DNA from: Fibrobacter sp.
Lineage (GTDB): Bacteria > Fibrobacterota > Fibrobacteria > Fibrobacterales > Fibrobacteraceae
NCBI GenBank assembly: GCA_024399015.1
Contig: JAKSIC010000032.1
Location: 1-32,062 of the forward strand
DNA length: 32,062 nt
Direction of reading: 5' to 3'
Position numbers and translations under genes: made by a program
In this document: positions 14,040-28,630 of the stretch, in pieces
Layout of the letters: each line of letters opens with the position of its first letter
Position numbering within the stretch: position 1 is the stretch's first letter
Notes under the pieces: generated by a model
Told to the model about the DNA's origin: nothing
The model's database searches: none
What the model saw: the letters and a program-made list of their open reading frames with translations, nothing else

Positions 14040-15170
14040 CTACTTAAAGAATTCTTCCACCTTGTCACAGACAAAGTTCAGGTCATCGTTACTCAAGCCA
14101 TAATACATCGGCAAGCGCAGCAGGCGATTGCTTTCTGCAGTGGTAAACTTGTCCTCCCCATGGAACTGTCCAAAGCGTTTTCCCGCGGGGGCATTATGCA
14201 GCGGAACATAGTGGAACACCGCCAGAATTTCATTCTTCACCAAATGGGCAATCATCTTGGTGCGTCCATCCAGATCAGGCATCTTGATGTAGAACATGTG
14301 AGCATTGTGCCTGCAATGTTCCGGAACCTGAGGCAACTGAATCAAGCCCCGCTGTTCAAGGCCAGACAAGCGTTCGCGATAAGCGTTCCAGCTAGCCATT
14401 CGGTTATCATAAATCTTGTTAGCTTGTTCCAATTCCGCATACAAGTAGGCCGCATTCAATTCGCTAGGCAAGTAGCTGGAACCCAGTTCCACCCAAGTGT
14501 ACTTATCCACTTCACCACGATGGAACTGACAACGGTTCGTTCCCTTTTCGCGAATGATTTCCGCGTGGTCCGCAAACTTTGCATCACGAATGAGAAGAGC
14601 TCCGCCCTCCCCCATGCTGTAGTTCTTGGTTTCGTGATAGCTATAGCAGCCAAAATCGCCCAAGGTTCCCAAGGCACGGCCCTTATAAGTAGCCATCATC
14701 CCCTGGGCAGCATCTTCCACCACAAACAGATTATGGCGGCGAGCAATTTCATTAATCGTATCCATCTCGCAAGCCACACCTGCGTAATGCACCGGCACAA
14801 TAGCCTTGGTTCGTGGAGTGATTGCTGCTTCCACCAGTTTTTCATCCAAGTTCATAGTGTCGGGGCGAATATCCACGAACACGCACTTGGCGCCGCGCAT
14901 AGCAAAAGCATCCGCAGTAGAAACAAAGGTGAAAGACGGCATGATCACTTCGTCGCCAGGCTTGATGTCGCAAAGGAGTGCAGCCATTTCCAGAGCATGG
15001 GTACAGCTGGTGGTAAGCAAAGCCTTCGCCGTTCCTGTATGCTCCTTGAGCCAGGCATGGCATTTCTGATTGAACTGACCATCGCCACAAATACGTCCGC
15101 TTTCTACAGCGGCACGAACATAATCAATCTCGGGACCAACAAAAGGAGGCTTGTTAAAAGGAATACGCAT
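14040..15170 (-). CDS. wecE: dTDP-4-amino-4,6-dideoxygalactose transaminase (WecE/RffA type)
   Basis: 376 residues from the ATG at 15170. PLP-dependent DegT/DnrJ/EryC1/StrS aminotransferase. The match to WecE is close throughout: IPFNKPPFVGPEIDYV at the start, GDEVIMPSFTFVSTADAF, IVPVHYAGVACEMDTI, FVVEDAAQGMMATYKGRALG, SYHETKNYSMGEGGA (with the PLP-binding Lys), and NAHMFYIKMPDLDGR. It should transaminate dTDP-4-dehydro-6-deoxyglucose, made by RfbB, to dTDP-4-amino-4,6-dideoxygalactose, using glutamate. The start lies 7 bp downstream of the stop of the gene at 15178-16449, so the two are probably coupled. The upstream TTG at 15176 is less likely as start. Confidence 0.9.
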   Translation of the reverse strand: MRIPFNKPPFVGPEIDYVRAAVESGRICGDGQFNQKCHAWLKEHTGTAKALLTTSCTHALEMAALLCDIKPGDEVIMPSFTFVSTADAFAMRGAKCVFVDIRPDTMNLDEKLVEAAITPRTKAIVPVHYAGVACEMDTINEIARRHNLFVVEDAAQGMMATYKGRALGTLGDFGCYSYHETKNYSMGEGGALLIRDAKFADHAEIIREKGTNRCQFHRGEVDKYTWVELGSSYLPSELNAAYLYAELEQANKIYDNRMASWNAYRERLSGLEQRGLIQLPQVPEHCRHNAHMFYIKMPDLDGRTKMIAHLVKNEILAVFHYVPLHNAPAGKRFGQFHGEDKFTTAESNRLLRLPMYYGLSNDDLNFVCDKVEEFFK

Positions 15171-15177
15171 ACACAAC

Positions 15178-16449
15178 TCAATTTAAAATAACGTAAGGAG
15201 TCCAACGCTTGTAGAAACGTTCCTGGAACTTCAAAGGAGAAAGAATCGGTTCGTGGTCACCTTCAACCACAAAGCGAACGTCCGGATGTTTGCGGGCCAA
15301 ATCAGCAACCAATCGCAAAGTTTCCATCAAGCGTTCCGTATAAGCAGAATCCAGCTTTTCAACAGGAATGCGATAAGCGGCCTGGGTTACATCACTACCC
15401 GGAGCGGTCAAACCTTCAACAGGGAACTTGGTGGCCGTGGTAGTCCACGCAGCGAAAACCTTGGGGGCGGCGGCACCCGAATCCGACGGCACTGTCAAAA
15501 CGCTATCCAGCATTTTTGCAATTTCACCATCACTCAAGGACTTGTCCCACACCACATTTCCAAAGCCCACATTACTGATGTACTTAAACCGCCACTGTTC
15601 CGTGCTATCAAGAGCAACAAAGAAATGAGTGTTAAAACCAGCAGCAGCCAACTGGGCAGGAATAAACAACGTATCACGACGACGTGTTGCCGAATCACGC
15701 TTCAATTCGTAAATCAAGTTCTCACGTTCGGCCGTTCGAGTGCGGCTGTACATGCGGCTATGCACACCCACTTGCACGGGCACACCTGCATCCCGGAACA
15801 CGGACAGTTCAGCTTCAAACCGTTCGTTATCCAAGGGAATGCCCCAGCTTTCCACCAACACAAAAACATTGCTACGGGTAGAATCCACATACCGGCGAGC
15901 CACAAAGGCAGAATCTTCCACGGAGTACTTTGCCTTGAAAGATTCCGGCAAGATTTTTTGTTCCACAGGCTTGGGCGCCGTTCTTGCCAAATAGTCCACC
16001 ACCGGGAACTGAGCCAAAGGCTGAGCCGCATAGTTGTTATAGGCAAACAGGTGCGCAATCAGCGCCACAAAAACAATCAAGTTTACCGTGGGGAATGTAA
16101 AAGGAGGAACTTTCCACATCATGGCAACAGCGAGGACGCACGTGACCACCGGAACAATTCCGTACCAACCCATGTTCCAACCCTTGATGGCAAGCAAGTT
16201 ACTCAAGTCAAGGTAAGCCACCACGAGCATCAAGGCGACAATCAAAGCCATCGCCGCATAGCGCAAGCGTGTCACGCAAAGCTTTGCCGAAGCATTCTGC
16301 GGTTTCACCCACGCAAAGCAAAGCAGCAAGGCAAATTCTTCAAATCCGAACAATCCGCGCACAATATCCTGGCCTTTTTCGAACGTAAGCAAAAAAGGCG
16401 CGATCGTGATCAAGGCACTGGCCACCAACGGATAAAGTAATCGCATCAT
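15178..16449 (-). CDS. Membrane-anchored alkaline phosphatase superfamily protein
   Basis: About 423 residues from the ATG at 16449 (a second ATG is at 16446; TTG at 16479 would lengthen it). Roughly five hydrophobic segments occupy residues 1-145. A periplasmic domain follows, with SNVFVLVESWG (about 190-200), SRTRTAERENLIYEL where a nucleophilic Thr could sit, and FVVEGDHEPI near the end. These match the layout of LTA-synthase/phosphoethanolamine-transferase relatives of the alkaline phosphatase superfamily, which move phospho-groups onto envelope glycans. The substrate is unknown, and the N- and C-terminal metal ligands are only partly clear. It heads the minus-strand row with wecE and the ATP-grasp gene. 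Confidence 0.6.
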   Translation of the reverse strand: MMRLLYPLVASALITIAPFLLTFEKGQDIVRGLFGFEEFALLLCFAWVKPQNASAKLCVTRLRYAAMALIVALMLVVAYLDLSNLLAIKGWNMGWYGIVPVVTCVLAVAMMWKVPPFTFPTVNLIVFVALIAHLFAYNNYAAQPLAQFPVVDYLARTAPKPVEQKILPESFKAKYSVEDSAFVARRYVDSTRSNVFVLVESWGIPLDNERFEAELSVFRDAGVPVQVGVHSRMYSRTRTAERENLIYELKRDSATRRRDTLFIPAQLAAAGFNTHFFVALDSTEQWRFKYISNVGFGNVVWDKSLSDGEIAKMLDSVLTVPSDSGAAAPKVFAAWTTTATKFPVEGLTAPGSDVTQAAYRIPVEKLDSAYTERLMETLRLVADLARKHPDVRFVVEGDHEPILSPLKFQERFYKRWTPYVILN

Positions 16450-16495
16450 ACGGGGTAAATGTAAATTAAAATCAACCAAAAAGTTTTTTTCTTTT

Positions 16496-16501
16496 TATAT
16501 T
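16496..16501 (+). promoter_or_regulatory. TATATT box 13 bp before the ArnC/GtrB-like start
   Basis: TATATTCcatgctATG with no Shine-Dalgarno. On the opposite strand TACATTT lies 14 bp before the divergent ATG at 16449 (16458-16463), so both divergent genes could be leaderless. Confidence 0.5.
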
Positions 16502-16508
16502 CCATGCT

Positions 16509-17477
16509 ATGAGCGAGCAAAATCAGAACTTGCAAAAAACAACATTGATTTCCTTTGTGGTCCCTTGCTATCGAAGCCAGGGAACCATCGAGACCGTGGT
16601 TAACGAAATCCGCGACACCGTCGCAAAGCAAAACGGCTCCGACGCATTGCGAACCTTCGATTACGAGATCGTTCTCGTAAACGACTGCAGCCCCGACAAC
16701 GTTTGGCAAGTCATCAAGAGCCTCGCTGCCGCAGACCCGAAAATCAAGGGAATCTGCCTCGCCAAGAATTTCGGCCAACACTGCGCCCTCATGGCAGGCT
16801 ACGCCCAGGCCACCGGCGATTACGTTGTAAGCCTGGACGACGACGGCCAGACACCCGCCAGCGAAACCTTCAAGCTCGTGGACAAACTGGAAGAAGGCTT
16901 CGACGTGGTGTACGGCTACTACGCCCACAAAAAGGAGCACCTGTTCCGCCGTTTCGGCAGCTGGACCAACAAGAAAATGGCCGAAGCTATTATCGGCCAG
17001 CCCAAGACTCTGCAGACCACCAGTTTCTTCATCATGAAGAAATTCATCGTAGAAGAAATCACCCGCTACTCCCACCCCTTCGCCTACATCAGCGGCCTGG
17101 TTTTCCGCGCCACCAAGAGCCTGGGCAATGTGGAAGTGGAACACCGCAACCGTTTGGAAGGCACCTCCGGCTACACCATCGCAGGCCTTATCCGCCTGTG
17201 GATCAACGGATTCACCGCCTTCAGCGTAAAACCCTTGCGTGCCGCCACCTTCATCGGCATCCTCTGCGCCATCATAGGCCTTGTCGCAGGCGGCTTTGTG
17301 GTGTACCAAAAACTGATGCGCCCCGAAATCCCCGTGGGCTATACCAGCATCCTTGCCAGCATGCTTTTTATCGGCGGCATGATCATGCTCCTGCTTGGCC
17401 TTATCGGCGAATACATCGGCCGAATCTACATCAGCATCAACCAGAGCCCCCAATACGTCATTAGGGAAAAGGTATGA
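16509..17477 (+). CDS. Polyprenyl-phosphate glycosyltransferase (ArnC/GtrB/DPM-like GT2)
   Basis: 322 residues. GT2 catalytic domain (ISFVVPCYRSQGTIETVV at residues 14-31, DYEIVLVNDCSPDN, VVSLDDDGQTPAS with the DDD metal motif, RNRLEGTSGYT) followed by two strong transmembrane segments (about 238-262 and 277-300) and a short basic tail. This is the architecture of enzymes that load a sugar onto undecaprenyl phosphate at the inner face of the inner membrane. The next gene overlaps by 4 bp (ATGA) and is a large membrane protein, recalling GtrB-GtrC pairs in which the loaded sugar is then added to a surface glycan. Confidence 0.88.
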   Translation: MSEQNQNLQKTTLISFVVPCYRSQGTIETVVNEIRDTVAKQNGSDALRTFDYEIVLVNDCSPDNVWQVIKSLAAADPKIKGICLAKNFGQHCALMAGYAQATGDYVVSLDDDGQTPASETFKLVDKLEEGFDVVYGYYAHKKEHLFRRFGSWTNKKMAEAIIGQPKTLQTTSFFIMKKFIVEEITRYSHPFAYISGLVFRATKSLGNVEVEHRNRLEGTSGYTIAGLIRLWINGFTAFSVKPLRAATFIGILCAIIGLVAGGFVVYQKLMRPEIPVGYTSILASMLFIGGMIMLLLGLIGEYIGRIYISINQSPQYVIREKV

Positions 17478-19222
17478 TCCGTCGCAACCTAGCCATTGCG
17501 CTTTGCATAAACCTTTTCTTTCTGGCCCTCTGTCTGATCTTTGGCGACCTTAAGTTCGGCGCCATCGACGACTACTTCATGGCGGCGGTACTTACCGGAG
17601 CCCACGGCACCGATTACAACCCCCACCTGCTCTTTGTCAACGCCCTCTACGGCTACGCGCTGATTCCACTATATAAACTGTTCCCCACCATCGGCTGGTA
17701 CTACATCGGCGAAATGTTCAGCGTGTTCCTGAGCTTCACCACCATCAGCTACATCATCATCAAAAAAATGGGAGACAAATGGGGCACGCTCATCGCCACC
17801 TTGTTCGTGGCCATGTTCGCCAGTGACTTCTACCTGGTGGTACAGTTTACCCAATGCGCAAGCCTCCTCAGCGCCACCGGCATGCTTGTCTTCGCCAACG
17901 CCGTTTGCAACAACAATGTCATTGCGAGGAGCGCAGCGACGTGGCAATCCAAGCAGTCTCTACTCAACGCCCTCCCTTACCTCTACGCCCTCGTCCTCCT
18001 TCTCTGGGGCAGCATCATGCGTTGGCAGGCCTTCCTCATGGGCATGCCCTTCTTCTGCATCGGCCTCCTTTTCAACATCAAAAAATGCTGGGCAAACAAA
18101 ATCCCCGTCATCATTACCCTAGCCGTAATGTTCATTGCCGCCTTCGGCCTCCAGCAATGGGATCGTAGCCTCTACACCACCCCCGAATACAAGCCCTACA
18201 TGGAAATCCAGGGCCCCCGCGCAGCCCTTGGCGATGGCAACAATTACAACCAAAACGCCGTCTACGAAGAACTGGAAGAAATGGGGATGTCTGCAAAAGA
18301 CTACAACATGCTCACCGAATGGACCTTCTACGACACCGAGACATTCGCCAAAGACAGCATGCAAGCCTACGTGAACATCATCAACCAGTTCAGGGACAAG
18401 AACGAAAAGAAAGACATTCCGCAAGCTCTTTTAAATGTCCTGGCCAATTCCATCAACCGACCCATCTTTTTCACATGGTTTATTGCATGCCTGCTGATCC
18501 TGGCAACAAACAAGCGTAAGTTCCCCTACCTGTGGGCTAGCCTTGGCTCCATCTTTTTCTTGATGACCATGCTGCTCGCCCAGAACCGCCTGGTGTACCG
18601 CGTAGAAAGTGGCTTCTGGCTCTACTCCGCCATGCTCGCCGTTCCCCTTTGGAACCAGATCAAATCTGAGAAGATCGACAAGTTCGTCAACAACAAATCT
18701 CTCGCAATCATTCTATCTGTCATCGCCCTCGCCAACATTTTCTCCTACGCAACAACCGGAGATGTTGTCCGTAATCCCAGTTCTGGAAAAGAAACCACCC
18801 TGGCCGTCGACGACTCCACCGATTACAAGAAAGTTATTGAATATTTTGACACCAATCAAGACAAAATGTTCATGCTGAACATGCGAACATACATGGTGTT
18901 AAGCCACCACAAAATGCCGCCCTACAAGGCAGAACCCATAGGCAGTTACAAGAACACCATCAGCTTTGGCTACTGGACCCCCTACCTGCCCGAAATCACA
19001 CAGACATTGGCAGAATACGGAATAACCAACCCCATCAAGGACGTGGTCAAGGAAAACGTCATCGTCGTAAACGAGCCTAAACTAAGCGACTTCCTGACGC
19101 GCCACTACTACGGCTCCAACGCCGACGGCACCCCCACAGGCGACACCATCGTCATCGATACATTGAAAACAATCGGAAAGACAAACTTCCTAAAATACAG
19201 ACTCTTATCCAAGCCCTTGTGA
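17474..19222 (+). CDS. Polytopic membrane protein, GT-C/GtrII-like glycosyltransferase candidate
   Basis: 582 residues with about ten hydrophobic segments in the first 430 and a soluble C-terminal part of about 150. The early FGAIDDYFMAAVLTG between the first two segments fits the Asp-Asp/Glu loop of GT-C enzymes that use polyprenyl-linked sugars on the periplasmic side. It starts within the stop of the upstream GtrB-like gene with an AAAAGG ribosome-binding site, so the two are coupled. Residues about 148-162 (VIARSAATWQSKQSL) come from an in-frame palindromic repeat at 17917-17960, placed in or next to a membrane loop. A Wzy-like polymerase is an alternative reading. Confidence 0.6.
   Translation: MIRRNLAIALCINLFFLALCLIFGDLKFGAIDDYFMAAVLTGAHGTDYNPHLLFVNALYGYALIPLYKLFPTIGWYYIGEMFSVFLSFTTISYIIIKKMGDKWGTLIATLFVAMFASDFYLVVQFTQCASLLSATGMLVFANAVCNNNVIARSAATWQSKQSLLNALPYLYALVLLLWGSIMRWQAFLMGMPFFCIGLLFNIKKCWANKIPVIITLAVMFIAAFGLQQWDRSLYTTPEYKPYMEIQGPRAALGDGNNYNQNAVYEELEEMGMSAKDYNMLTEWTFYDTETFAKDSMQAYVNIINQFRDKNEKKDIPQALLNVLANSINRPIFFTWFIACLLILATNKRKFPYLWASLGSIFFLMTMLLAQNRLVYRVESGFWLYSAMLAVPLWNQIKSEKIDKFVNNKSLAIILSVIALANIFSYATTGDVVRNPSSGKETTLAVDDSTDYKKVIEYFDTNQDKMFMLNMRTYMVLSHHKMPPYKAEPIGSYKNTISFGYWTPYLPEITQTLAEYGITNPIKDVVKENVIVVNEPKLSDFLTRHYYGSNADGTPTGDTIVIDTLKTIGKTNFLKYRLLSKPL
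17917..17960 (+). repeat. Palindromic repeat inserted in frame in the membrane protein gene
   Basis: TGTCATTGCGAGGAGCGCAG, then CGACGTGGCAATCCAAGCAG. Aligns with the minus-strand element at 13018-13053 apart from two 3-bp differences, and is read in the same frame (VIA...QSKQ). Confidence 0.78.
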
Positions 19223-19279
19223 GCCAACGCAATTGTCACCCCAAAAATTTGCGATGCACCCACTTTTTTATTAGATTAA

Positions 19280-19423
19280 TCCTTTTCCCTTATCGAAATC
19301 ATGATGGTCATCGTCATCATGGGCATTTTGGCCGCCGTGGCCGTACCCAAGGTCTTCTCCATCGCAGAAACGTTCTTGTGCCAAACGACCACAATTATAC
19401 AAGCATATTTCATCAGATTTTGA
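19280..19423 (+). pseudogene. Type IV pilin, N-terminal fragment
   Basis: After an in-frame TAA the frame reads SFSLIEIMMVIVIMGILAAV then AVPKVFSIAE: the class III/prepilin hydrophobic helix (normally GFTLIEIMVVIVIMGILAAVAVPK). There is no start codon or leader peptide before it (the residue before FSLIE is Ser, preceded by a stop), and the pilin similarity ends at about 19369, after which the frame runs through unrelated residues to a TGA at 19421. A C-terminal pilin fragment lacking exactly this part lies at 30705-31091 in the same orientation. The piece seen here is surely non-functional as it stands. Confidence 0.8.
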
Positions 19424-19611
19424 AATCACAGTTTGTGATTTCAAAGAACATTTTCCCCGTAAGCAACCTTATCGTGGTGCAAAAATTGCACCTCGATAAC
19501 AGTTTGATGTCAATTTTTTTGATATCAAATGTTTCACACCCATTTCAAGTTGTGCAACTTGAGGTCGATTTTTCCGACTTCAAGTTTCAAGGTCGTTTTT
19601 TCCGACCTTGA
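19419..19611. repeat. Hairpin cluster A (six inverted repeats)
   Basis: Inverted repeats at 19419-19445 (11-bp perfect arms TTTGAAATCAC), 19469-19499 (TTATCG-T-GGTGCAA arms), 19503-19529, 19545-19562, 19558-19584 and 19587-19611. Most have arms of the type (C)AAGGTC or GGTGCA and an A/T-rich loop of 3-7 bases. Read on the minus strand, they spell LKSQTVISK, SRCNFCTTI, LISKKLTSN, (none for the fourth), LKSEKSTSS and SRSEKTTLK, resembling the LRSxxxT motif of the ORF6N gene at 20861-21877. Cluster fills the gap between the pilin fragment and the broken PIN gene; nothing else is seen in that gap. Confidence 0.8.
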
Positions 19612-19689
19612 TCCTAACACTCCCAAGGCAATACCATCAGCAGCAACACCTCGTCAATCAGCCAAAGTCACCAACAAATTCCTCCAGCG

Positions 19690-20000
19690 TTTTCAGATTT
19701 ATCTTGGGAAAGCCAACATTCCTAAGTTTCCTAAACATCCGGATCCATCTTTATCAATCACAATCTGAAAAACGGGTCCTTTCGTACAACATTGTTTGAA
19801 AACTGCACCACCCTCATAAACATAGCCGAAATCATCGGAGCAGCCTTCTCTCTAAAGATTTCCTCATATTCAAGCAAAATTTCGGTAGAAACACAAAGTA
19901 CATATTCTTCATCCAGGAACTTTTTCCACAGAAAATGGTAGGGAGTTCTACTACCAAGCATTTGCAGCATGGCATTCGTATCAATAACGATTTCTCGCAT
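19690..20000 (-). pseudogene. PIN-domain toxin (COG1569-like), broken
   Basis: Starts MREIVIDTNAMLQML at the ATG at 20000, 2 bp after the antitoxin stop. IDTN holds the first catalytic Asp, and STEILLEYEEIF the conserved Glu of PIN ribonucleases. The frame stops at 19758 after 80 residues (VRKDPFFRL), well short of the roughly 140 expected. Beyond the TGA the same frame continues LIKMDPDV, matching the family's 'FFRFNLIxxDPDDNKF', and then degenerates through further stops and a frameshift near 19720, so the last catalytic Asp region is lost. It is therefore read as an inactivated toxin. Cluster A hairpins begin about 80 bp further on. Confidence 0.7.
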
Positions 20001-20002
20001 GG

Positions 20003-20236
20003 CTACCCCCGATAAGGAGTACGAAGATGTTCTGATTTCAGCTGTTCCAGTTTTTCCTGGCCAAAAGATCCGTCTTCCCAACGCCTATCAAGCTCTTGTT
20101 CAAGACGTTCTGCATAAAAATTTTTTAGAAGTTTTGTCAACGCAGCCAACTCTTCTTCACTAGTAACGCTAGCGAAGGACTCAACTACCAGCATTTGAGC
20201 CGGATTCAGAGAAGCCAAAGTCAGTTCGTCAATCAT
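20003..20236 (-). CDS. Antitoxin of the PIN-domain pair
   Basis: 77 residues from the ATG at 20236 (MIDELTLASLNPAQMLVVES), preceded by a GGGAG ribosome-binding site at 5 bp; an upstream ATG at 20290 is less likely. The protein is acidic and mostly helical, ending EHLRTPYRG, resembling small antitoxins encoded directly before COG1569 PIN toxins. The stop is 2 bp before the toxin ATG, the classic antitoxin-first operon. The antitoxin frame is intact although its toxin is broken. Confidence 0.65.
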   Translation of the reverse strand: MIDELTLASLNPAQMLVVESFASVTSEEELAALTKLLKNFYAERLEQELDRRWEDGSFGQEKLEQLKSEHLRTPYRG

Positions 20237-20447
20237 AAAAACTCCCGTTTGCTCTTGGCTAATATAGATATTATTCTGCACTTGTTGCATATTCTTTTTC
20301 CTTTCCGTTTTACAGGCGTGAACAAAAAACGGATTCACCTTGGTCGGACTGCACAAATATAACGCAGAATTCTTAAAAGATGCCACCAGTTTTTGACGAT
20401 TTGCTCATTTACACTTAGCCAACATTCCATAACAAAAAGAGAGCGTA
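20237..20447. other. Upstream region of the toxin-antitoxin pair
   Basis: AT-rich DNA with no convincing gene. It should contain the promoter of the antitoxin gene, but I could not assign boxes with confidence. Confidence 0.3.
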
Positions 20448-20859
20448 AACTTGAAGTCAAATTTTTTGACCTCAAGTTGCTAAAACACAAAAAAAACATT
20501 TTCAATCTCACTGAATTCCGTTATATTATTAAAATCCAATTCAAAATCTACACCATGAAATTTTGAACCCGTCACACTTTATGACCAGATTTTTTCAGCG
20601 AGGTCTAAGGTCAGAAATTTTGACCTTAGAAATTCCAAGATATTCGCTTGGTCGCTAAATTGCCTTTTGAAACCACTCATGCACACACATACGCCTTGTT
20701 CCGTAAAGGCATAGGGATAAGTTCATCTCAACACATTTATATTTGCGGTCAAAAAATTTGACCACAAATTTCAAGGTGGATTTTTTGCACCTTGAACATA
20801 TTCGACATACTCCATAGTCACTTCGGAATTCAACTTGAAGTGCAATTTTTGCACCTCAA
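20448..20859. repeat. Hairpin cluster B (five inverted repeats)
   Basis: Inverted repeats at 20448-20478 (14-bp arms, one mismatch), 20604-20630 (10-bp perfect arms TCTAAGGTCA), 20741-20769 (13-bp arms, one mismatch), 20770-20796 (9-bp perfect arms TTCAAGGTG) and 20835-20859 (11-bp arms, one mismatch). Minus-strand peptides: LRSKNLTSS, LRSKFLTLD, LWSNFLTAN, SRCKKSTLK and LRCKNCTSS. The last one begins 2 bp after the ORF6N stop codon; the third and fourth abut each other. Several single mismatches are A/C on the plus strand, which become G-U wobble pairs in minus-strand RNA. Confidence 0.8.
20579..20769 (-). pseudogene. Decayed ORF6N-domain gene fragment
   Basis: On the minus strand the frame reads NLWSNFLTANI, then after a TGA TYPYAFTEQGVCVCMSGF, then a further LEFLRSKFLTLDL before a TAA at 20579. 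PYAFTEQGVCVCMSGF aligns with PYAFTEQGIYMLMSVL of the intact ORF6N protein, and the distance from LWS to PYAF is 17 residues in both, so this is a genuine relic of a second copy. The second LRS segment downstream is out of place for the domain order and comes with its own hairpin (20604-20630). Confidence 0.65.
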
Positions 20860-20860
20860 A

Positions 20861-21877
20861 CTAAACTAAATCACCCAACACCTTCTCAATCAGCTCGTGA
20901 TAGACTTCAGGGTATTCAATGTCGTCTATCGTTGTCACGCGCTTTCCAGCATCCTTACTTGATGCGCCACAATGGAACATCTTTTCATGGTCTGTTTTGT
21001 AATCCAACACAATATAGCGATCATGGAATATACCGCCTGCAGGCCTCCGCTCAATATCCACATCAGGCCTAGCAGCCTTGAAGTCGTCAATCATCGTTTG
21101 AGTCAAAGCGCAGCCATTCCGCTGGTCGCTAAAAATCGTCACATTCACATTCTGAGCAACACCTCGCAATAAATCCAGTGTTTTTACGCCAACAAAATCA
21201 TCAAACATGAAAATTGACTTCTGAGCCATGCCATAAATCTGCGTGTAAGCGACATCAGCCTCCAGTTTTTGCCCATTCAGAATCAGGTGGTGCTTGTAAG
21301 TAGACGGGTCGTGGAAAAACTCCATGACCTTGCCCAAAGAATCTTGGGTTTTCAGAGACTCCACCTCCAAACGAGCCACATCCGTACGAATTTCCGCAAT
21401 TTCGCGGGAATGTTGTGCCGTGAGGGTTGCTATTTGAACACAATTTGAACAACCCAACAGTTGTTGATTTTCTGTAGCAATGTAATCCTTCATGCCCTTG
21501 AAAAGACGGACAAGAGCTTTGCTTTGAGCTACTGCCAATGGCCCCCTCAAAACAGACATCAACATATAGATTCCCTGTTCCGTAAATGCATAAGGTCGGA
21601 ATTTTGAATATTTTCCCTGTTCTAAGGTCGGTTTTTCCGACCTTAGAATTTCATGATATTCTTCTTTCGTCAACTGAAATCGAAAATCAGCATCAAAACG
21701 TTCAATATTGGCTTTAACCTGTTCATTAAAACGCTTGGTACTATACCCATAAATTTCCGCCAGATCGGCGTCAAGCATCACCTTTACACCACGGATGGTG
21801 TAAACCTTGCTCTTCAGCAAATTCTCGTCAATGAGAGAAAACTCGGCACTATTGCCGGCAACCACATTCTTTTTCAT
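20861..21877 (-). CDS. ORF6N domain protein with C-terminal PLD-like domain
   Basis: 338 residues. N-terminal ORF6N DNA-binding domain (about 18-130): VYTIRGVKVMLDADLAEIYG, STKRFNEQVKANIERF, FRFQLTKEEYHEILRSEKPT and PYAFTEQGIYMLMSVLRGP. A helical linker follows (about 140-190). The C-terminal part (195-338) looks like a PLD-like fold: VAYTQIYGMAQKSIFMFDDF, VTIFSDQRN, then GGIFHDRYIVLD and HCGASSKDAGKR, where HDR replaces the usual HxK. ORF6N proteins are common in phages and mobile islands. A perfect 12-bp inverted repeat at 21620-21648 encodes residues 77-86. Likely promoter at 22045-22073. The gene ends 2 bp before another hairpin of the same family. Confidence 0.82.
   Translation of the reverse strand: MKKNVVAGNSAEFSLIDENLLKSKVYTIRGVKVMLDADLAEIYGYSTKRFNEQVKANIERFDADFRFQLTKEEYHEILRSEKPTLEQGKYSKFRPYAFTEQGIYMLMSVLRGPLAVAQSKALVRLFKGMKDYIATENQQLLGCSNCVQIATLTAQHSREIAEIRTDVARLEVESLKTQDSLGKVMEFFHDPSTYKHHLILNGQKLEADVAYTQIYGMAQKSIFMFDDFVGVKTLDLLRGVAQNVNVTIFSDQRNGCALTQTMIDDFKAARPDVDIERRPAGGIFHDRYIVLDYKTDHEKMFHCGASSKDAGKRVTTIDDIEYPEVYHELIEKVLGDLV
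21620..21648. repeat. Perfect hairpin inside the ORF6N coding sequence
   Basis: Arms TTCTAAGGTCGG (21620-21631) and CCGACCTTAGAA (21637-21648) around TTTTT. On the coding strand it spells ILRSEKPTLE, the motif variable among ORF6N proteins. It belongs to the same family as the hairpins of clusters A and B. Confidence 0.9.
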
Positions 21878-21889
21878 GAATTATTCTAC

Positions 21890-21906
21890 GGGATTCCCGA
21901 AATCCC
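21890..21906. other. Small inverted repeat upstream of ORF6N gene
   Basis: GGGATT-CCCGA-AATCCC, 13 bp before the ORF6N ATG. It could form a leader hairpin in the mRNA and limit translation; no other support. A looser inverted repeat (GAGAGTTAATCACCTCT against AGAGGATTAATTCTC) lies at 21991-22035. Confidence 0.4.
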
Positions 21907-22044
21907 ATGCTCTACGCATGCTGCCGAGGGGCCGATCCCCCCTCAGAGGTCCTGCGGAAATGCGATTGCACGTTCCAGCGACACATGGCAGAGAGTTAAT
22001 CACCTCTCCAATTTCAGCTAAGAGGATTAATTCTCACGGCAATA

Positions 22045-22073
22045 AAGATACACAAACGTTCACTACCTGTCAA
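22045..22073 (-). promoter_or_regulatory. Candidate sigma70-type promoter for the ORF6N gene
   Basis: On the minus strand TTGACA (22073-22068), 17 bp, then TATCTT (22050-22045). That predicts a start near 22038 and a leader of about 160 bases before the ORF6N ATG. Confidence 0.5.
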
Positions 22074-22107
22074 GTAGTATTTACACGTTCCTCCAAATCC
22101 TCCAACC

Positions 22108-22135
22108 TGTCATCCCGGCCTTGAGCCGGGATCTC
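22108..22135. repeat. Palindromic GC-rich repeat (REP-like), copy 2
   Basis: ATCCCGGC/GCCGGGAT arms (22112-22119, 22125-22132) around CTTGA, preceded by TGTC: the reverse orientation of the element at 262-289. It is followed by a T-run and ends just before the wzt start region, so it may also act as a terminator for plus-strand readthrough. Confidence 0.65.
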
Positions 22136-22145
22136 CTTTTTTTAC

Positions 22146-22151
22146 TACATT
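22146..22151 (+). promoter_or_regulatory. TACATT box 13 bp before the wzt start
   Basis: TACATTCccgaacATG, no Shine-Dalgarno; same layout as the other probable leaderless starts in this window, with one base different from TATATT. Confidence 0.4.
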
Positions 22152-22158
22152 CCCGAAC

Positions 22159-23460
22159 ATGGCTACCGCAATCGAATTCGAGAACATCAGCAAGCAGTAC
22201 CGCCTGGGCTTGGTAAGCACAGGCACGCTCAGCCACGACCTCAATCGATTCTGGCAGACCAAGATCCTGCGCCGCGAGGACCCCTACCTCAAAGTGGGCG
22301 AAACCAACGACCGCGCAAGCAAAGGTTCCAGCGACTACGTGTGGGCCCTGAAGGACATCAACTTCAAGGTGGAACAGGGCGACGTCGTGGGCATCATCGG
22401 CCGCAACGGCGCAGGCAAAAGCACGCTCCTCAAGCTGCTCTCCCGCGTGACCGCACCCACCACGGGCATCATCCGCGCCAAGGGCCGCATCGCAAGCCTG
22501 CTTGAAGTGGGCACCGGCTTCCACCCCGAAATGACCGGCCGCGAGAACATCTACATGAACGGCGCCATCATGGGCATGACCCGCGCCGAAATCTCCCGCA
22601 AGCTGGACGAAATCGTAGACTTCAGCGGCTGCGAACGCTACCTCGACACCCCCGTCAAGCGCTACTCCAGCGGCATGACCGTACGCCTGGGCTTCGCCAT
22701 CGCCGCCCACCTGGAACCCGAAATCCTCGTGGTGGACGAAGTGCTGGCCGTAGGCGACGCCGAATTCCAGAAGAAAGCCATCGGCAAGATGCAGGACGTA
22801 AGCAAAGGCGAAGGCCGGACCGTGCTGTTTGTGAGCCATAATATGGGGGCGGTCAGGAACCTGTGCAAGACGGGGATTGTGCTGAATCAAGGACAAGTTG
22901 CATTTGAAGGAAGTGCGGAAGAAGCGATTGGGTTTTATACAAGTAATCAAAACATACAGTTTCCTACCACACGACGATTATCCTCCGAAGACCATCTCAG
23001 CAATATAGCCCTGACAAAAAATCTCGAAATAATAGAAGCAAGGCTGCTTAACGATCCTAGTGAAATTGGAACTGATGAAGATTTGTCCATTGAACTTATT
23101 GTTCAGCAAAATAATCGCAAAAAAGAATATTGCCAATACACAATTCTTTTTTATGACGATGCGGGAAATCGCGTAGAATGTTTTTATACAAACCTTCTTC
23201 ATATACCGAACAAAGACACCTACACGACAAAAATCATTATAAAAAATCACAATTTGTACCAAGGAACATACACTATTAGAGCTACTTTAGGCATTCGTGA
23301 TTTTTCCACCGCTGTAACAAACTACGACGCAACAGCTGATATTTTGGCTTTTACCGTAAAATATCTAAGTAAAAATAAAAAATGCGAATATAGCACTAAC
23401 AGTAAATGGTATAAAAGCATTTATCGAAACATAGAACCATCAAACATTGAATTTTTCTAA
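22159..23460 (+). CDS. wzt: ABC transporter ATPase for polysaccharide export with Wzt-type C-terminal domain
   Basis: 433 residues. The ATPase half (about 1-255) has Walker A GRNGAGKST (about 82-90), signature YSSGM, Walker B ILVVDE and the H-loop FVSHNMG. The C-terminal half (about 275-415) is a beta-rich extension like the Wzt C-terminal domain, which recognises the modified end of the glycan and sets chain specificity. It should work with the Wzm permease at 10711 to export O-antigen-like chains across the inner membrane. Codon choice changes abruptly near 22850-22900: the first half is GC-rich and host-like, the last half AT-rich like the genes after it. The stop is 3 bp before the next ATG. 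Confidence 0.92.
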   Translation: MATAIEFENISKQYRLGLVSTGTLSHDLNRFWQTKILRREDPYLKVGETNDRASKGSSDYVWALKDINFKVEQGDVVGIIGRNGAGKSTLLKLLSRVTAPTTGIIRAKGRIASLLEVGTGFHPEMTGRENIYMNGAIMGMTRAEISRKLDEIVDFSGCERYLDTPVKRYSSGMTVRLGFAIAAHLEPEILVVDEVLAVGDAEFQKKAIGKMQDVSKGEGRTVLFVSHNMGAVRNLCKTGIVLNQGQVAFEGSAEEAIGFYTSNQNIQFPTTRRLSSEDHLSNIALTKNLEIIEARLLNDPSEIGTDEDLSIELIVQQNNRKKEYCQYTILFYDDAGNRVECFYTNLLHIPNKDTYTTKIIIKNHNLYQGTYTIRATLGIRDFSTAVTNYDATADILAFTVKYLSKNKKCEYSTNSKWYKSIYRNIEPSNIEFF

Positions 23461-23463
23461 AAT

Positions 23464-24561
23464 ATGAAAAAACTAGTTCTTGTTGGCGAATTTAATTCAC
23501 CCAACATGGGTGACTCCGTTATTTTTCATGTTTTTTTAGCTCTTTTAAGAAAAGAATATCCCCAAAAAATAATCACAATTGATATATCCGATTATCGAAA
23601 CCCGACTCACTTATTTACACGCGTTATTAATAAAGCCTGCCATTATCTGGGAGATCTTTGGAAATTTGTTACATATCCTTATATGAGAATTAAAACATCA
23701 CTACGCATTCCAACCAATTCCTACATTTGTTTTGTTGGTGGTGCTCTGTGCCAAAATTACTTTGCAAATTCAATCAGTGCTATATTACGAACTGGCAAAG
23801 TAAAAAATTGTTTTATAGACTTTTTTTCAATAGGGATTGGGCCATCATCGCCCCAAAATGAAAAAAAAATATTATCTGCAATATCATCTTGTAACAAGAT
23901 AAAACTAACAATTCGTGATGGTTGGAATTATTGGAACAGCAAACACTTTACTTATCAAATCCAATCTGATATAGCGATTTGTTCATCCCTTATATACAAG
24001 GGTAATGAAAAAAAAGAAAAAATATTGGGCATAGGAGTCATATCTCTTCAAAGCTATAAGTTGAAATATCCTAACAATACACTCACAATAATGCAATACC
24101 AACAAAGTTTAAAGGAACTTATACAAGACGCCATTTCCATGGGATACAAAGTTGAGCTATTTTGCAATGGAGATATTCCCGATTACGACCAAATGCTCCA
24201 AATAAAAGAATACCTTAACAACAATGATGTCAGTATCGCAAGAAGACCCCAAAATCATTTGGAATTGGTTGATTTAATAAATCGATATTCATTTATTATC
24301 GCATCAAGACTTCATGCCATTATCATATCCTATTCATTCCATATACCATTTTTTGCTATCGGCTGGGATCCTAAAGTTGACGATTTTTTAACAAGAATTC
24401 AAAGAAATGATTTGGGAAAGCCTCTTAACTGTATTCCGTCTATTGATTGGAATGATGTACTTCAAAAACAAAATCTTAGAAGCGAAGATTTTCTACTATT
24501 AAAAAAACAGCAAAACACACTAATTCAACGAATAAAGACGATTGTTTCTAATATATCTTAA
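23464..24561 (+). CDS. Polysaccharide pyruvyl transferase family protein
   Basis: 365 residues. VLVGEFNSPNMGDSVIF at the start, SYICFVGGALCQNYF (residues about 88-102), IRDGWNYW, and the C-terminal IASRLHAIIISYSFHIPFFAIGWDPKVDDFL are the landmarks of the WcaK/CsaB/PssM family, which adds pyruvyl ketals (or in some members transfers other groups) to exopolysaccharide sugars. The fold is GT-B-like. The exact acceptor is unknown. It follows wzt by 3 bp with no Shine-Dalgarno, so translation is probably coupled. AT-rich codon use marks it as part of the acquired cassette. Confidence 0.82.
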   Translation: MKKLVLVGEFNSPNMGDSVIFHVFLALLRKEYPQKIITIDISDYRNPTHLFTRVINKACHYLGDLWKFVTYPYMRIKTSLRIPTNSYICFVGGALCQNYFANSISAILRTGKVKNCFIDFFSIGIGPSSPQNEKKILSAISSCNKIKLTIRDGWNYWNSKHFTYQIQSDIAICSSLIYKGNEKKEKILGIGVISLQSYKLKYPNNTLTIMQYQQSLKELIQDAISMGYKVELFCNGDIPDYDQMLQIKEYLNNNDVSIARRPQNHLELVDLINRYSFIIASRLHAIIISYSFHIPFFAIGWDPKVDDFLTRIQRNDLGKPLNCIPSIDWNDVLQKQNLRSEDFLLLKKQQNTLIQRIKTIVSNIS

Positions 24562-24623
24562 AAATGTTTTAGCACAACTTATTGTACACTAAAGAAAATC
24601 ATTTTATTTTTTTAATATTTACC

Positions 24624-25757
24624 ATGCCCCTCCTCTTTGATCTTTCTGCAACACAGCCTAGTGCCGCCATCAAACGTCATGGTGGAGGTAAATATTGCGA
24701 AATGTTATTCTTCGCAATGTGTCAAAGAGAACTCAAATTTCAAGCATTTTGGGATTCAAGCAGGTATATAAATCCAGAAGTTCTACAATCTGCAAAAAAA
24801 GCAAACATACAGCTTCACGACATCAGAAATACATCCCTAGACAACATCGCAAAAACACAAAATATTACGCATATTTACTCCGCTCTTCCAGAAGGTATTC
24901 TACCGTGGCCAAATTGCAAAATCCTAGGCACAGTCCATGGTTTACGGTCATTAGAAATGCCGTTCGATTTTTTCTCTCATTGGCAGTTAGACAACGGATT
25001 TATAGGGTTAAATACACTATTAGCATGGAAGAACAACAGGAAACATAAAAGTCTACTAAAAACGTACTATAAAGAGCTTCTAAACAGAAGTAATTTTGAC
25101 TTTGTTACCGTGTCCAATCATTCCAAAAGAGTGATCCAAGAAGTTTGCGGGAAATCGAACATTCCTGTATTTTATCCTCCATCAACTACAATCCAAACAT
25201 CTGTCCAAGAAAACAAGGAAAAATATTTTCTTTTGGTTTCCGCAGACCGGATTGAAAAAAACTGCACTCGAGCAATCATCGCCCTAGACCAACTAATATC
25301 AGCCAAAAAAATATCTAGTGATTTTTTTGTCAAAATAACAGGCTGTCAAGAAAATAAAGCACGCTATAGAATAAGAAACAAAGACAACTTTAGGTTCCTA
25401 GGCTATATTGAAGAAGACGAACTCAACAGCCTATACGCAAACGCATTCGCCTTTATATACCCCTCCTTAAACGAAGGTTTCGGCTACCCTCCATTAGAGG
25501 CTATGAAATTCGGTTCGCCCGTTCTCGCATCCAATGCTGCGTCAATCCCAGAAGTTTGCGGAAACGCAGCTTTGTACTTCAATCCAACATCAATCAACGA
25601 AATAAAGCTCAAAATTCTCGATTTGCTAAATGAAGACACATATGCCAACTTGAAAAAAACAGGTCTATCTAGATTTAAAGAAATTGAAGCGAAACAGAAC
25701 GATGATTTGAACAATCTCATAGATTGGATTATTTATAACTCCCCGGCAAACAAATGA
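24624..25757 (+). CDS. Glycosyltransferase family 4
   Basis: 377 residues from the ATG at 24624 (MPLLFDLSATQPSAAIKRHG, a common GT4 beginning); the TTG at 24582 adds an unlikely extension. GT-B fold: an N-terminal acceptor half with ILGTVHGLRSLEMPFDF, and a C-terminal nucleotide-sugar half with LLVSADRIEKNCTRAI (about 205-220), FRFLGYIEEDELNSLYANAF and the E-x7-E motif YPSLNEGFGYPPLEAMKFG (about 285-305), then SIPEVCGNAALYFNP. Cytoplasmic, adding one sugar to the repeat unit; the sugar is not predictable. It overlaps the next gene by 4 bp (ATGA). Confidence 0.88.
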   Translation: MPLLFDLSATQPSAAIKRHGGGKYCEMLFFAMCQRELKFQAFWDSSRYINPEVLQSAKKANIQLHDIRNTSLDNIAKTQNITHIYSALPEGILPWPNCKILGTVHGLRSLEMPFDFFSHWQLDNGFIGLNTLLAWKNNRKHKSLLKTYYKELLNRSNFDFVTVSNHSKRVIQEVCGKSNIPVFYPPSTTIQTSVQENKEKYFLLVSADRIEKNCTRAIIALDQLISAKKISSDFFVKITGCQENKARYRIRNKDNFRFLGYIEEDELNSLYANAFAFIYPSLNEGFGYPPLEAMKFGSPVLASNAASIPEVCGNAALYFNPTSINEIKLKILDLLNEDTYANLKKTGLSRFKEIEAKQNDDLNNLIDWIIYNSPANK

Positions 25758-26566
25758 TTTTAGAAAAACTTCGTAACAACCCAACTTGTATCAAAATCTA
25801 TTCATACCTAAAATGGCATGAACGTTTTGCACTAATCAAAAATTTCGGGTTCAAATATAAATGCCCTTTTTGCGGTTATCATGCTAGAAAATTTATTCAA
25901 ATTGGACAAACACATAAAGTCATTTTTGAGAAAGAAATTATAGGGTGCGGGCAGCGATTTGCCGAGTGTACAAAATGCGGTTCAACAGACAAAGAACGAC
26001 TTGTATTCACGTATTTACAAAATTGCACCAACCTCTTTGCAGATCCAAGCAAGTCCGTTCTTCACATGGCCCCCGAGTTGAGCTTAAGCAAGCAATTTTT
26101 CAAGCACAAGTTCAAAGAATATGTATGTGGTGATTTCTTTGCCCCAGGCTATGAGGACGCCTATCCAAGCTATGTAAAAAACATCAACATTTTAGATATT
26201 CCGTACAATGCAAATTACTTCGATGTTGTAATATGCAACCACGTTTTAGAGCATGTAGAAGAAGATGTCAAGGGAATGTCCGAAATTTTTCGTGTACTGA
26301 AGAATGGTGGTTTTGCCATACTTCAAGTACCAATTTCATATAAAATTGAGAAAACATACGAAGATTTCAGCATAACAGATTCTAAGCTTCGCGAAAAAGC
26401 ATTTGGACAATGCAACCATGTAAGAATTTACGGTCCTGATTATGTTGATAGGCTTAAAAGCGTCGGATTTAAAGTAGACGTAATATCAAATTTAGCGCAG
26501 ACCTATCCCAAAGCCGGATTAAATGCAAAAGAAAAAATTTTTATTTGCCGCAAAGTTGACCTATAA
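25754..26566 (+). CDS. SAM-dependent methyltransferase with N-terminal zinc-ribbon-like part
   Basis: 270 residues. Residues 34-75 hold CPFCGYH, then CGQRFAECTKCGS, a cysteine arrangement expected to bind zinc. A class I methyltransferase (Methyltransf_11 type) follows: SVLHMAPELSLSKQF, YVCGDFF, NILDIPYNANYFDVVICNHV (motif with the acidic cofactor-binding residue), LEHVEEDVKGMSEIFRVL and GGFAILQVP. Two Cys-rich knuckles before a methyltransferase are common in surface-glycan loci. A role in methylating a sugar, perhaps as a chain end that the Wzt C-terminal domain recognises, is inferred from context. It overlaps the GT4 gene by ATGA, and the next gene converges on it after 17 bp. Confidence 0.82.
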   Translation: MILEKLRNNPTCIKIYSYLKWHERFALIKNFGFKYKCPFCGYHARKFIQIGQTHKVIFEKEIIGCGQRFAECTKCGSTDKERLVFTYLQNCTNLFADPSKSVLHMAPELSLSKQFFKHKFKEYVCGDFFAPGYEDAYPSYVKNINILDIPYNANYFDVVICNHVLEHVEEDVKGMSEIFRVLKNGGFAILQVPISYKIEKTYEDFSITDSKLREKAFGQCNHVRIYGPDYVDRLKSVGFKVDVISNLAQTYPKAGLNAKEKIFICRKVDL

Positions 26567-26583
26567 ATCATATATAGATTCAT

Positions 26584-27552
26584 TTAAAAAACGGACGAAA
26601 ATTTTCTCACAAACTTTTCAACTAAATCAAACCTAGACTTCTTGCCCAACATTTTCCTTTCAAACATATCTCGAACAAGACCGTATAGCGCGGTCTTTTT
26701 TAATTCATAGTCAACATTATCGTACAACTGAACCGGGCCATCAAACGCTTCCAACGGGTTCTTTAACATCAGCACAACATAGTCATTAAGCCCATCCTTT
26801 TTTACTATTTCCCAAAAAGACTTTCGTTGAAAAACATAAGGTTTATCACCTTTTTCCTTCATCCAGCCAGTAAAGAAATGAACCAGTTTTGCTTTGGGGA
26901 AATATTTCCAAGACCGACTAATCTGGGAATTGTAATTCCCTGGTAACAACGGAACATCATCTCCATACAATTGCTTAAAGGCATAGTTCAAAGATGGCAT
27001 GTCAATATAATATCCAGACTTTGATGTTTCCAACCATTTTTCATGCCATATTTTAAAAAACTTTCGAGCCTTTTCAGAATCACGAGAAAACAGCACACCT
27101 CCATTCACATATTTCCGAACTTTAGGATCGCAATTCGTACGCTCAAAATCCTGATTTACACCCTCAATAGACTGACTTTCATTTAGTAAGCAATGAGCAT
27201 CAAGCACACCCATTACATCCGCAGTAAAATCAGATTCATCTACTGGTGAAGCCCACACTGTATCCGAATCCACATACAAAAAATCTCCATCAACAATAGA
27301 TCGCAGGGTCGTTTTCAATGTTCTTGACCTAGCGATACTCGGAACAGAATCTTCAAAATCACACACTACATATTCATCAACAAGATCTCTAAGCACCACT
27401 AAGGACTTGTCGTTGCCTTTATCCATTTTATCATCTACAATCAGCGCAATTTTTGCTGATTGAGACACAAATTTCAAGGATGCAACAGAAACCAAGGTTT
27501 GTTCTTGATAAAAACCTTCCGTAGATCCAACTAATACATAAACAAACTTCAT
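26584..27552 (-). CDS. Glycosyltransferase, GT8-like
   Basis: 322 residues. Starts MKFVYVLVGSTEGFYQEQTL, with VDGDFLYVDSDTVW (about 88-101) carrying the DxD metal-binding motif, YVNGGVLFSRDSE (about 143-155) and LVHFFTGW near the end, the HxxGxxKPW-like position of GT8 enzymes. GT-A fold; retaining transferase expected if the family call holds. It is the only reverse gene between two plus-strand blocks, and it diverges from the GT2 gene at 27605 with a 52-bp AT-rich spacer containing the palindrome GTTATA-TTTAA-TTATAAC-like sequence. AT-rich codon use. Confidence 0.7.
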   Translation of the reverse strand: MKFVYVLVGSTEGFYQEQTLVSVASLKFVSQSAKIALIVDDKMDKGNDKSLVVLRDLVDEYVVCDFEDSVPSIARSRTLKTTLRSIVDGDFLYVDSDTVWASPVDESDFTADVMGVLDAHCLLNESQSIEGVNQDFERTNCDPKVRKYVNGGVLFSRDSEKARKFFKIWHEKWLETSKSGYYIDMPSLNYAFKQLYGDDVPLLPGNYNSQISRSWKYFPKAKLVHFFTGWMKEKGDKPYVFQRKSFWEIVKKDGLNDYVVLMLKNPLEAFDGPVQLYDNVDYELKKTALYGLVRDMFERKMLGKKSRFDLVEKFVRKFSSVF

Positions 27553-27604
27553 CGTAAGCCCTTCATAATGTTATATTTAATTATAACAATTAATTGTCTT
27601 TTGT

Positions 27605-28630
27605 ATGATTAAAGTTTCCGTCATCGTACCTGTCTATACAGTTCCCTTAGAGTATCTAAGAGAATGTTTCGACTCTCTTAAAGACCAAACAATGCGAGAA
27701 TGCGAGTTCATCATAATCTCAGACGGAGCTCCAGATGCAGAATGTGCAATTTGTGATGAATATGCAAAAAACGATCCAAGATTTAAATTCTTCCGCAAAG
27801 AACATGCCGGGGTTTCTGCAACCAGAAATTACGGAATTGAACAAGCGCAAGGCAAGTACATCACATTCGTTGATGCTGACGATAAGATTGTTTCAACAAA
27901 TTGTGAGATTGCATATAATTTTGCACAAGAACATTCTAGCGACATTGTAATATGGGAAGCCGAAAGATTCGGATGTACCAAACGAAAGTCTAAATTTTAC
28001 AAAAATGAATTAATCGACACCATTGAATACGAAGAAACTCTAAACATTTGCAAAAACACTGTCTTCACATTCTCTGAACGGTACAGCATATTTTCTCTCG
28101 TATGTTGCAAGCTTTTCAAAAAAAAATTACTCCAAGAAAACAATCTTAAATATCCGACGGATTTATCATTCAACGAAGACCGTTTGTTCAACATCTCCGC
28201 ATTTAAGGCTGCAAAAAAAATATCTTATCTAAATAAGCCTTTCTATTTCTATCGAATTCACAATCAGTCTACATCTCACAAATTCGTCAACAACGCTTTT
28301 TATGAATTTACAAAATTTTTAAAAATGTTTGATTCAAACGATGCTAAGCTTTACAAAAGTTCGGTATCTCATGAATATGTTAGATCGTTTTTTTTAAGCT
28401 GGGCTTCTTATTATCTGCATCCGGCAAATAAAACGAATTTAAAGCAAAACATTTTACAATTAAAAGCAATCATCCTTTCAAAAGATTTTCAAACACACAT
28501 AAAGGGTGTTTCAATATGCAATTTTTCATTCTTATTAGGAATTGAAATAGTCTTCTTTAGGCGACGCTGTACCTTGCCGCTTTACCTTCACTACATCAAG
28601 TTTTTAATACTCACCCGAGTAAAAAAATAG
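27605..28630 (+). CDS. Glycosyltransferase family 2
   Basis: 341 residues. Classic GT2 beginning: KVSVIVPVYTVPLEYLRECF (residues 3-22), EFIIISDGAPDA, GVSATRNYGIEQAQGKYITFVDADD (about 76-100, with the DxD), and FNEDRLFNISAFKAAKKISYL near 193-213. Inverting transferase in the cytoplasm, specificity unknown. The C-terminal third (from about 225) is basic and amphipathic, which might associate with the membrane. No Shine-Dalgarno is present. It converges with the GT2 gene at 28647 with only 16 bp between the stops and no clear terminator. Confidence 0.88.
   Translation: MIKVSVIVPVYTVPLEYLRECFDSLKDQTMRECEFIIISDGAPDAECAICDEYAKNDPRFKFFRKEHAGVSATRNYGIEQAQGKYITFVDADDKIVSTNCEIAYNFAQEHSSDIVIWEAERFGCTKRKSKFYKNELIDTIEYEETLNICKNTVFTFSERYSIFSLVCCKLFKKKLLQENNLKYPTDLSFNEDRLFNISAFKAAKKISYLNKPFYFYRIHNQSTSHKFVNNAFYEFTKFLKMFDSNDAKLYKSSVSHEYVRSFFLSWASYYLHPANKTNLKQNILQLKAIILSKDFQTHIKGVSICNFSFLLGIEIVFFRRRCTLPLYLHYIKFLILTRVKK

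Follow-up and report, generated by a model that had tools for sequence, protein, structure and literature searches.

The window analysed here, 32,062 nucleotides of a Fibrobacter sp. contig (JAKSIC010000032.1), carries on its minus strand an intact gene of the ORF6N family, the sole ORF6N gene of its genome at the family cut-off (Table 1). A preliminary description of this DNA had reported a perfect 12-bp inverted repeat over residues 77-86 of the gene, and a repeat search bears this out, with arms at 21620-21631 and 21637-21648 that are 100% complementary. A partial third copy of an arm lies nearby, at a site (21591-21601) where the relatives L039, L040 and L135 have different bases. Perfect palindromes with arms of at least 9 bp and a spacer of 3-9 nt occur 10 times in the 32-kb window, compared with 0-1 times in base shuffles, and 4 of these 10, all of the same design, lie in the ORF6N gene or no more than about 1 kb from it. 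At least 10 further palindromes of this design were found at 19419-20859. Three of them belong to what is left of another, disrupted ORF6N loop region and the others are free-standing, five of these in a cluster whose surroundings hold no recognisable ORF6N coding. Between the palindrome clusters, two small overlapping ORFs on the minus strand (19758-20386) look, by eye, like a toxin-antitoxin pair of PIN-like type. The gene itself stands within a surface polysaccharide cluster (14160-28630) with genes for an ABC transporter ATPase, a pyruvyl transferase and glycosyltransferases.

Table 1. Coordinates of the ORF6N gene, its palindrome and the related features in the window
Feature	Position	Strand	Remarks
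ORF6N gene	20861..21877	minus	Intact, 338 aa; ORF6N domain, coiled-coil helices, putative PLD-fold C-terminal domain
Perfect coding palindrome	21620..21648	minus	12-bp arms, 5-nt spacer; encodes ILRSEKPTLE (aa 77-86)
Partial third arm copy TAAGGTCGGAA	21591..21601		33 nt from palindrome; encodes part of KFRPY
Conserved ORF6N-domain continuation PYAFTEQGIYMLMS	21551..21592	minus	Anchor in all alignments
Broken second ORF6N loop region (remnant)	20639..20862	minus	LRCKNCTSS ... NLWSNFLTAN ... YPYAFTEQG; tblastn E=3e-7
Three palindromes in the ORF6N remnant	20741-20769, 20770-20796, 20835-20859
Palindrome TCTAAGGTCAGAAATTTTGACCTTAGA	20604..20630		Outside any intact gene
Intergenic palindrome AACTTGAAGTCAAATTTTTTGACCTCAAGTT	20448..20478		One mismatched pair
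Five clustered palindromes of this design	19419..19611		19419-19445, 19469-19499, 19503-19529, 19556-19586, 19587-19611

The Pfam ORF6N profile (PF10543) matches residues 23-109 of the encoded protein (E=1.9e-30; 105.4 bits against a cut-off of 27.8), and the PADLOC profile PDC-S05, a candidate defence profile, matches residues 11-333 (E=9.8e-101). An AlphaFold2 model (mean pLDDT 77, pTM 0.43) has helices at 36-43 and 47-56 and strands at 66-68 and 96-98, and the palindrome-encoded loop lies between the strands with a pLDDT of about 56, the least confident stretch within the folded domain. As modelled, this loop would take the position of the wing in a winged helix, and the ORF6N domain appears winged-helix-like. 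The C-terminal half gave Foldseek matches to PLD-fold nucleases and phosphodiesterases (Tdp1, NucT, Zucchini) and carries the motif HDRxxxxD...GxSxKD, with H285, D286, R287 and D292 invariant; compared with the PLD motif HxK(x)4D, R replaces the lysine.

Presence across the ORF6N family

In an HMM-based census, a palindrome score of at least 7 was reached by 176 of 186 distinct ORF6N domains and a score of at least 9 by 149, whereas the same-length stretch just downstream reached these values in only 14 and 3 of 179 cases. Sixteen census domains are a biased sample, having been retrieved by pattern searches, and leaving them out made no material difference; the subsets collected blind to the palindrome were all high (31/31, 63/65, 24/25, 22/24 and 14/15). 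The apparent exceptions are mostly palindromes with one or two mismatches, which are found in about 43% of distinct palindromes and are fixed in some clades. Palindrome-bearing ORF6N genes come from the genus Fibrobacter, Bacillota, Bacteroidota, plasmids and viral contigs, and the palindrome sequence usually differs between them. Confinement to the window gene, the outcome that the preliminary description had named as speaking against its proposal, is ruled out: the palindrome is near-universal in ORF6N domains, and relatives of the gene have one at the same place.

Tandem arrays and broken copies also occur. One ORF6N gene (L167, 1417-2496; an open frame of 360 codons) has five palindromes in the loop at 42-bp steps and one more in the N-terminal tail. 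A Fibrobacter ORF6N gene (L115 / L127, G043:C46) is frameshifted inside one of three tandem palindromes, and the inner part of that palindrome is two bases shorter than usual.

Constraint at the DNA level

Resampling the synonymous codons of 131 ORF6N genes 300 times per gene, according to each gene's own usage, yielded a mean loop score of 3.6, compared with 10.9 observed and 3.7 in a control segment of the same genes. All but 3 of the 131 genes were exceptional at the 5% level, and 102 were unmatched by any resampling. The nucleotide alignment of many ORF6N genes, suggested in the preliminary description as a check for compensatory substitutions, did reveal them: across 45 distinct 27-mers, 97.8% of cells were paired and 10 of the 11 arm pairs were altered on both sides, with 137 both-side-changed cells against 32 in shuffles. 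Pairing fell to 37-45% when the register was slid by one column, and the covariation picture was unchanged with 70 distinct palindrome units.

The palindrome is also kept when frame and peptide switch, from the RSQIAT type in codon phase 0 to EVANCDL (L253) or LVANCDRF (L245, L228) in another phase, and L219 is likewise in another phase. A peptide motif, LRSxxxTS, was rejected as the cause because other frames and peptides stay palindromic and synonymous resampling fails to yield a palindrome. The palindrome is thus a feature of the DNA that the encoded residues leave unexplained. A mirror kept while its letters change suggests that the DNA of the gene, besides the protein, has some role.

A palindrome in DNA always implies a hairpin in the RNA, and copies closely flank some genes on one side or the other. 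An mRNA hairpin that governs how the gene is translated or how stable its message is nevertheless appears very unlikely. Sense-strand mismatches comprise 9 G.U, 12 A.C and 16 others, and the lack of G.U enrichment over A.C argues against the paired RNA being what is selected.

Location and turnover

The palindrome sits at one fixed place of ORF6N genes and is almost confined to these genes and their edges. For one palindrome core, GGTCRCAAWTTGYGACC, 17 sites were counted across about 413 Mb from 118 Bacteroidota genomes, compared with no occurrence of the reversed pattern used as control. By coordinates, an ORF6N domain encloses 12 of these sites, another 4 are no more than about 250 bp away and 1 is unlinked; the 12 genomes that hold the core are all among the 32 with ORF6N, and none is without it. 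With a second pattern, in Fibrobacter, most true matches were in or beside ORF6N genes, with few exceptions (L137, L139). An interspersed palindromic repeat of the REP or RPE kind was considered and rejected, since 16 of the 17 sites are in or near ORF6N instead of unrelated places.

The palindromes turn over as units. Where two genes share 84-94% identity in the DNA of their 90 flanking codons, their palindromes often differ, with similar numbers of changes per arm. Together with the paired arm changes and the near-universal presence, such whole-palindrome replacement upholds the earlier suggestion that the palindrome reflects selection or recent exchange; selection and mutational symmetrisation both fit the data so far. 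Conversely, the window palindrome is identical at 29 of 29 positions to those of L039 and L040, whereas most of the remaining gene is only 47-75% identical, and the likeness extends past the palindrome into the next few codons of the loop. This identity would fit an exchangeable or mobile palindromic module, in which hairpin cassettes move between ORF6N genes, and into their edges, by short-tract recombination or through a hairpin-acting enzyme, and are based at the gene in the way that REPs are based at RAYT genes. The clustering of extra palindromes at ORF6N genes, including nine in the spacer and the ORF6N remnant of the window, and the spacing of tandem copies (39, 42 or 57 bp, all multiples of three) point the same way. 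Such a module is improbable, however, given the lack of conserved ends, target duplication or a shared core sequence, the near-absence from unrelated genes in the 413 Mb of Bacteroidota DNA, and the lack of any transposase or recombinase linked to the palindrome.

Fast turnover in genes with 84-94% identical flanks and among E. coli strains (see below), together with the tandem expansions of the loop, could also reflect an evolvable contingency loop, in which frequent mutation at the hairpin would diversify the recognition loop of a defence protein. A hotspot has no need of perfect symmetry, however, and the recognition role of the loop is putative; we regard this explanation as highly improbable.

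Upstream copies of the palindrome were found in 16 of 125 ORF6N genes, and most genes are without a promoter-proximal copy. The upstream copies agree with the internal core of their own gene at 8.3 of 12 positions and with those of other genes at 7.3 of 12 (p=0.0015), a small difference between comparisons that are not independent. In Bacillota, the ORF6N genes L075, L097, L112 and L113 have another common palindrome just upstream, of the type TTAGCTTACA-AGC-TGTAAGCTAA, at an operator-like position about 340-360 nt before the PYAFTEQG codons.

Palindromes in sister families

RhuM, a Bro-N subgroup and DUF1016/YhcG have palindromes of their own at fixed places and in other codon phases, an extension beyond the preliminary description. 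In RhuM (PF13310) of Bacteroidota, the EGEL helix is directly followed by the palindrome, which lies in codon phase 2 (e.g. AACTGTTCGGAAATTCCGAACAGTT, CAGTTATTCGAAATTTTCGAATAACTG and TACGACAGTTTCCAAAATGGAAACTGTCGTA). A score of at least 7 was reached in 20 of 23 RhuM genes, only 8 of which were never matched by 300 resamplings, so that the null test is weaker here than in ORF6N. The palindrome is also present in RhuM of Enterobacter and an alphaproteobacterium, and an internal palindrome is absent from the RhuM genes examined in Aeromonas, Vibrio and Ligilactobacillus. About 11 of 30 Bro-N genes are palindromic, mostly in one subfamily and mostly in phase 1 (e.g. GTTTCAGTTGTCGACAAATTGTCGACAACTGAAAC), and one has a palindrome copy at -60. 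DUF1016/YhcG nucleases have a phase 0 palindrome in Burkholderia (GGATTGTGCAGACACTGTCTGCACAATCC), Hymenobacter and Granulicella. No palindrome was found inside KilA-N genes of the same Bacteroidota genomes, and the search of phage Rha returned ORF6N cross-matches only. All four palindrome-bearing families are phage-defence candidates in PADLOC (ORF6N and RhuM as PDC-S05, Bro-N as PDC-S13/S04 and DUF1016 as PDC-S02).

The yhcG gene of E. coli is present in 4417 genomes. In K-12 it has three palindromes, which stand at codons 106, 119 and 132 with a spacing of 39 bp; the third of them has 15 perfect pairs. Two palindromes, their arms different but again symmetric, are found in an allele of 92% identity, and a further allele combines a single perfect copy with a frameshifting deletion. 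In two further E. coli copies (L409, L410), similarity to yhcG is lost part-way through the third palindrome (around nt 385 and 406), and a transposase gene adjoins both broken copies, with IS1 in one. REPs are insertion targets, and by analogy coding palindromes may be too.

Symmetry of this kind could arise by mutation without function, the main alternative to a functional site. A surface loop that tolerates change would hold an ancient palindrome, multiplied by slippage, whose arms are equalised by template switching during replication (quasipalindrome correction), each mutation in one arm being copied into the other. The mechanism is established: template switching at short inverted repeats homogenises arms and inverts spacers in coding DNA, and in quasipalindromes it produces the same paired arm changes as a mutational process, not as a conserved feature of a family (PMC8604942, PMC8794818, PMC7202029). 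Symmetric multi-base changes in both arms, which mark template switching, do separate close relatives in our data. The symmetric differences between the tandem copies of L167, the E. coli yhcG alleles with one, two or three palindromes and symmetric changes, and the low model confidence of the palindrome-encoded loop are consistent with this explanation, as is the partial third arm copy of the window gene, possibly a template-switch copy itself. However, mutation alone leaves unexplained the near-absence from the rest of the 413 Mb, the recurrence at fixed places of four families in different frames and the absence from KilA-N, and we consider it somewhat unlikely as the whole explanation.

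A candidate site for the encoded protein

We tentatively prefer to regard the palindrome as a DNA-level cis element of the gene family and a candidate site for the encoded protein. The covariation, the synonymous null, the contrast between the census and its downstream control, and the ORF6N-specific location argue for such a site, as do the persistence of the palindrome through changes of frame and peptide and its replacement as a unit. Dyad symmetry and recurrence in several families with DNA-binding helices are in line with it, and some upstream copies resemble their own internal core, with the Bro-N copy at -60 as a further case. In addition, the modelled loop is flanked by strands that follow the HTH helices, and BstA offers a precedent in which a gene holds the DNA element that switches its own protein off. 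The lack of a promoter-proximal copy in most genes argues against a site, as do the mismatches in about 43% of distinct palindromes, fixed in some clades; moreover, template switching alone also gives mutual arm change.

In the mechanism that we envisage, a dimer of the encoded winged-helix protein would bind the dyad-symmetric palindrome, which would serve autoregulation or mark the gene as self, by analogy with aba of BstA. ORF6N genes with very different palindromes have near-identical recognition helices, which counts against this mechanism in that reading of the site would fall to the variable loop. With the site placed in the codons of the wing loop, a short recombination tract could swap the loop together with its cognate site, so that reader and site would stay matched. 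The paired mutations would probably be supplied by template switching in the hairpin, and a protein site and template switching may both hold. The broader proposal that in ORF6N, RhuM, Bro-N and YhcG alike the loop-coding DNA is the recognised site, with specificity and self-site inherited or exchanged together, appears unlikely at present.

Comparison with known systems

The nearest parallel is BstA, a DNA-binding KilA-N-like phage-defence protein whose coding sequence is overlapped by the DNA-based element aba, 63 bp long and located, with its direct CCCGCC repeats, at the 5' end of the gene (PMC8585504). Both systems combine a defence or candidate-defence DNA-binding protein with a DNA element inside its own gene. 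In contrast to the terminal direct repeats of aba at the 5' end, the window gene has an inverted repeat at codons 77-86, and the ORF6N element is a variable, dyad-symmetric palindrome in the domain-coding part with a putative role in autoregulation or self-recognition. Rickettsia palindromic elements are in-frame palindromic DNA in protein genes (Ogata 2000, 2002, as cited in PMC4316617 and PMC10969869); they are about 100-150 bp long, alike in sequence and located in unrelated genes, whereas the ORF6N type is 25-35 bp, sequence-variable and family-locked. PARCELs of Mollicutes are dyad-symmetric, tandem and variable coding DNA spread by HGT (PMC2996958). Each of their 75-bp units codes for an amphipathic repeat of 25 residues, in many cases within a membrane protein, unlike the putative DNA-binding wing loops; the ORF6N units are 13, 14 or 19 codons and usually single, and the window protein has no PARCEL Pfam match. 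Mitochondria of Nematomorpha (hairworms) have perfect inverted repeats in functional genes (PMC6649704), a likeness in position inside genes, but these belong to animal mitochondria, reach 284 bp and occur in many genes.

Our search of the open literature turned up no account of palindromes in genes for ORF6N, RhuM, Bro-N or DUF1016; since it missed most subscription journals, they may have been described before. A conserved DNA feature within the coding sequence of four such widespread families of defence candidates would offer a way into the function of these genes, and alignment-based readings of protein evolution in these loops would need to be redone at the DNA level. The yhcG gene, with three palindromes in K-12 and natural alleles of one and two, makes the question of selection or template switching concrete. 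At several loci (L237, on a Treponema saccharophilum plasmid, L396 and L400), ORF6N and RhuM genes lie within or alongside type I restriction-modification loci, with genes for a methyltransferase and a specificity subunit as neighbours.
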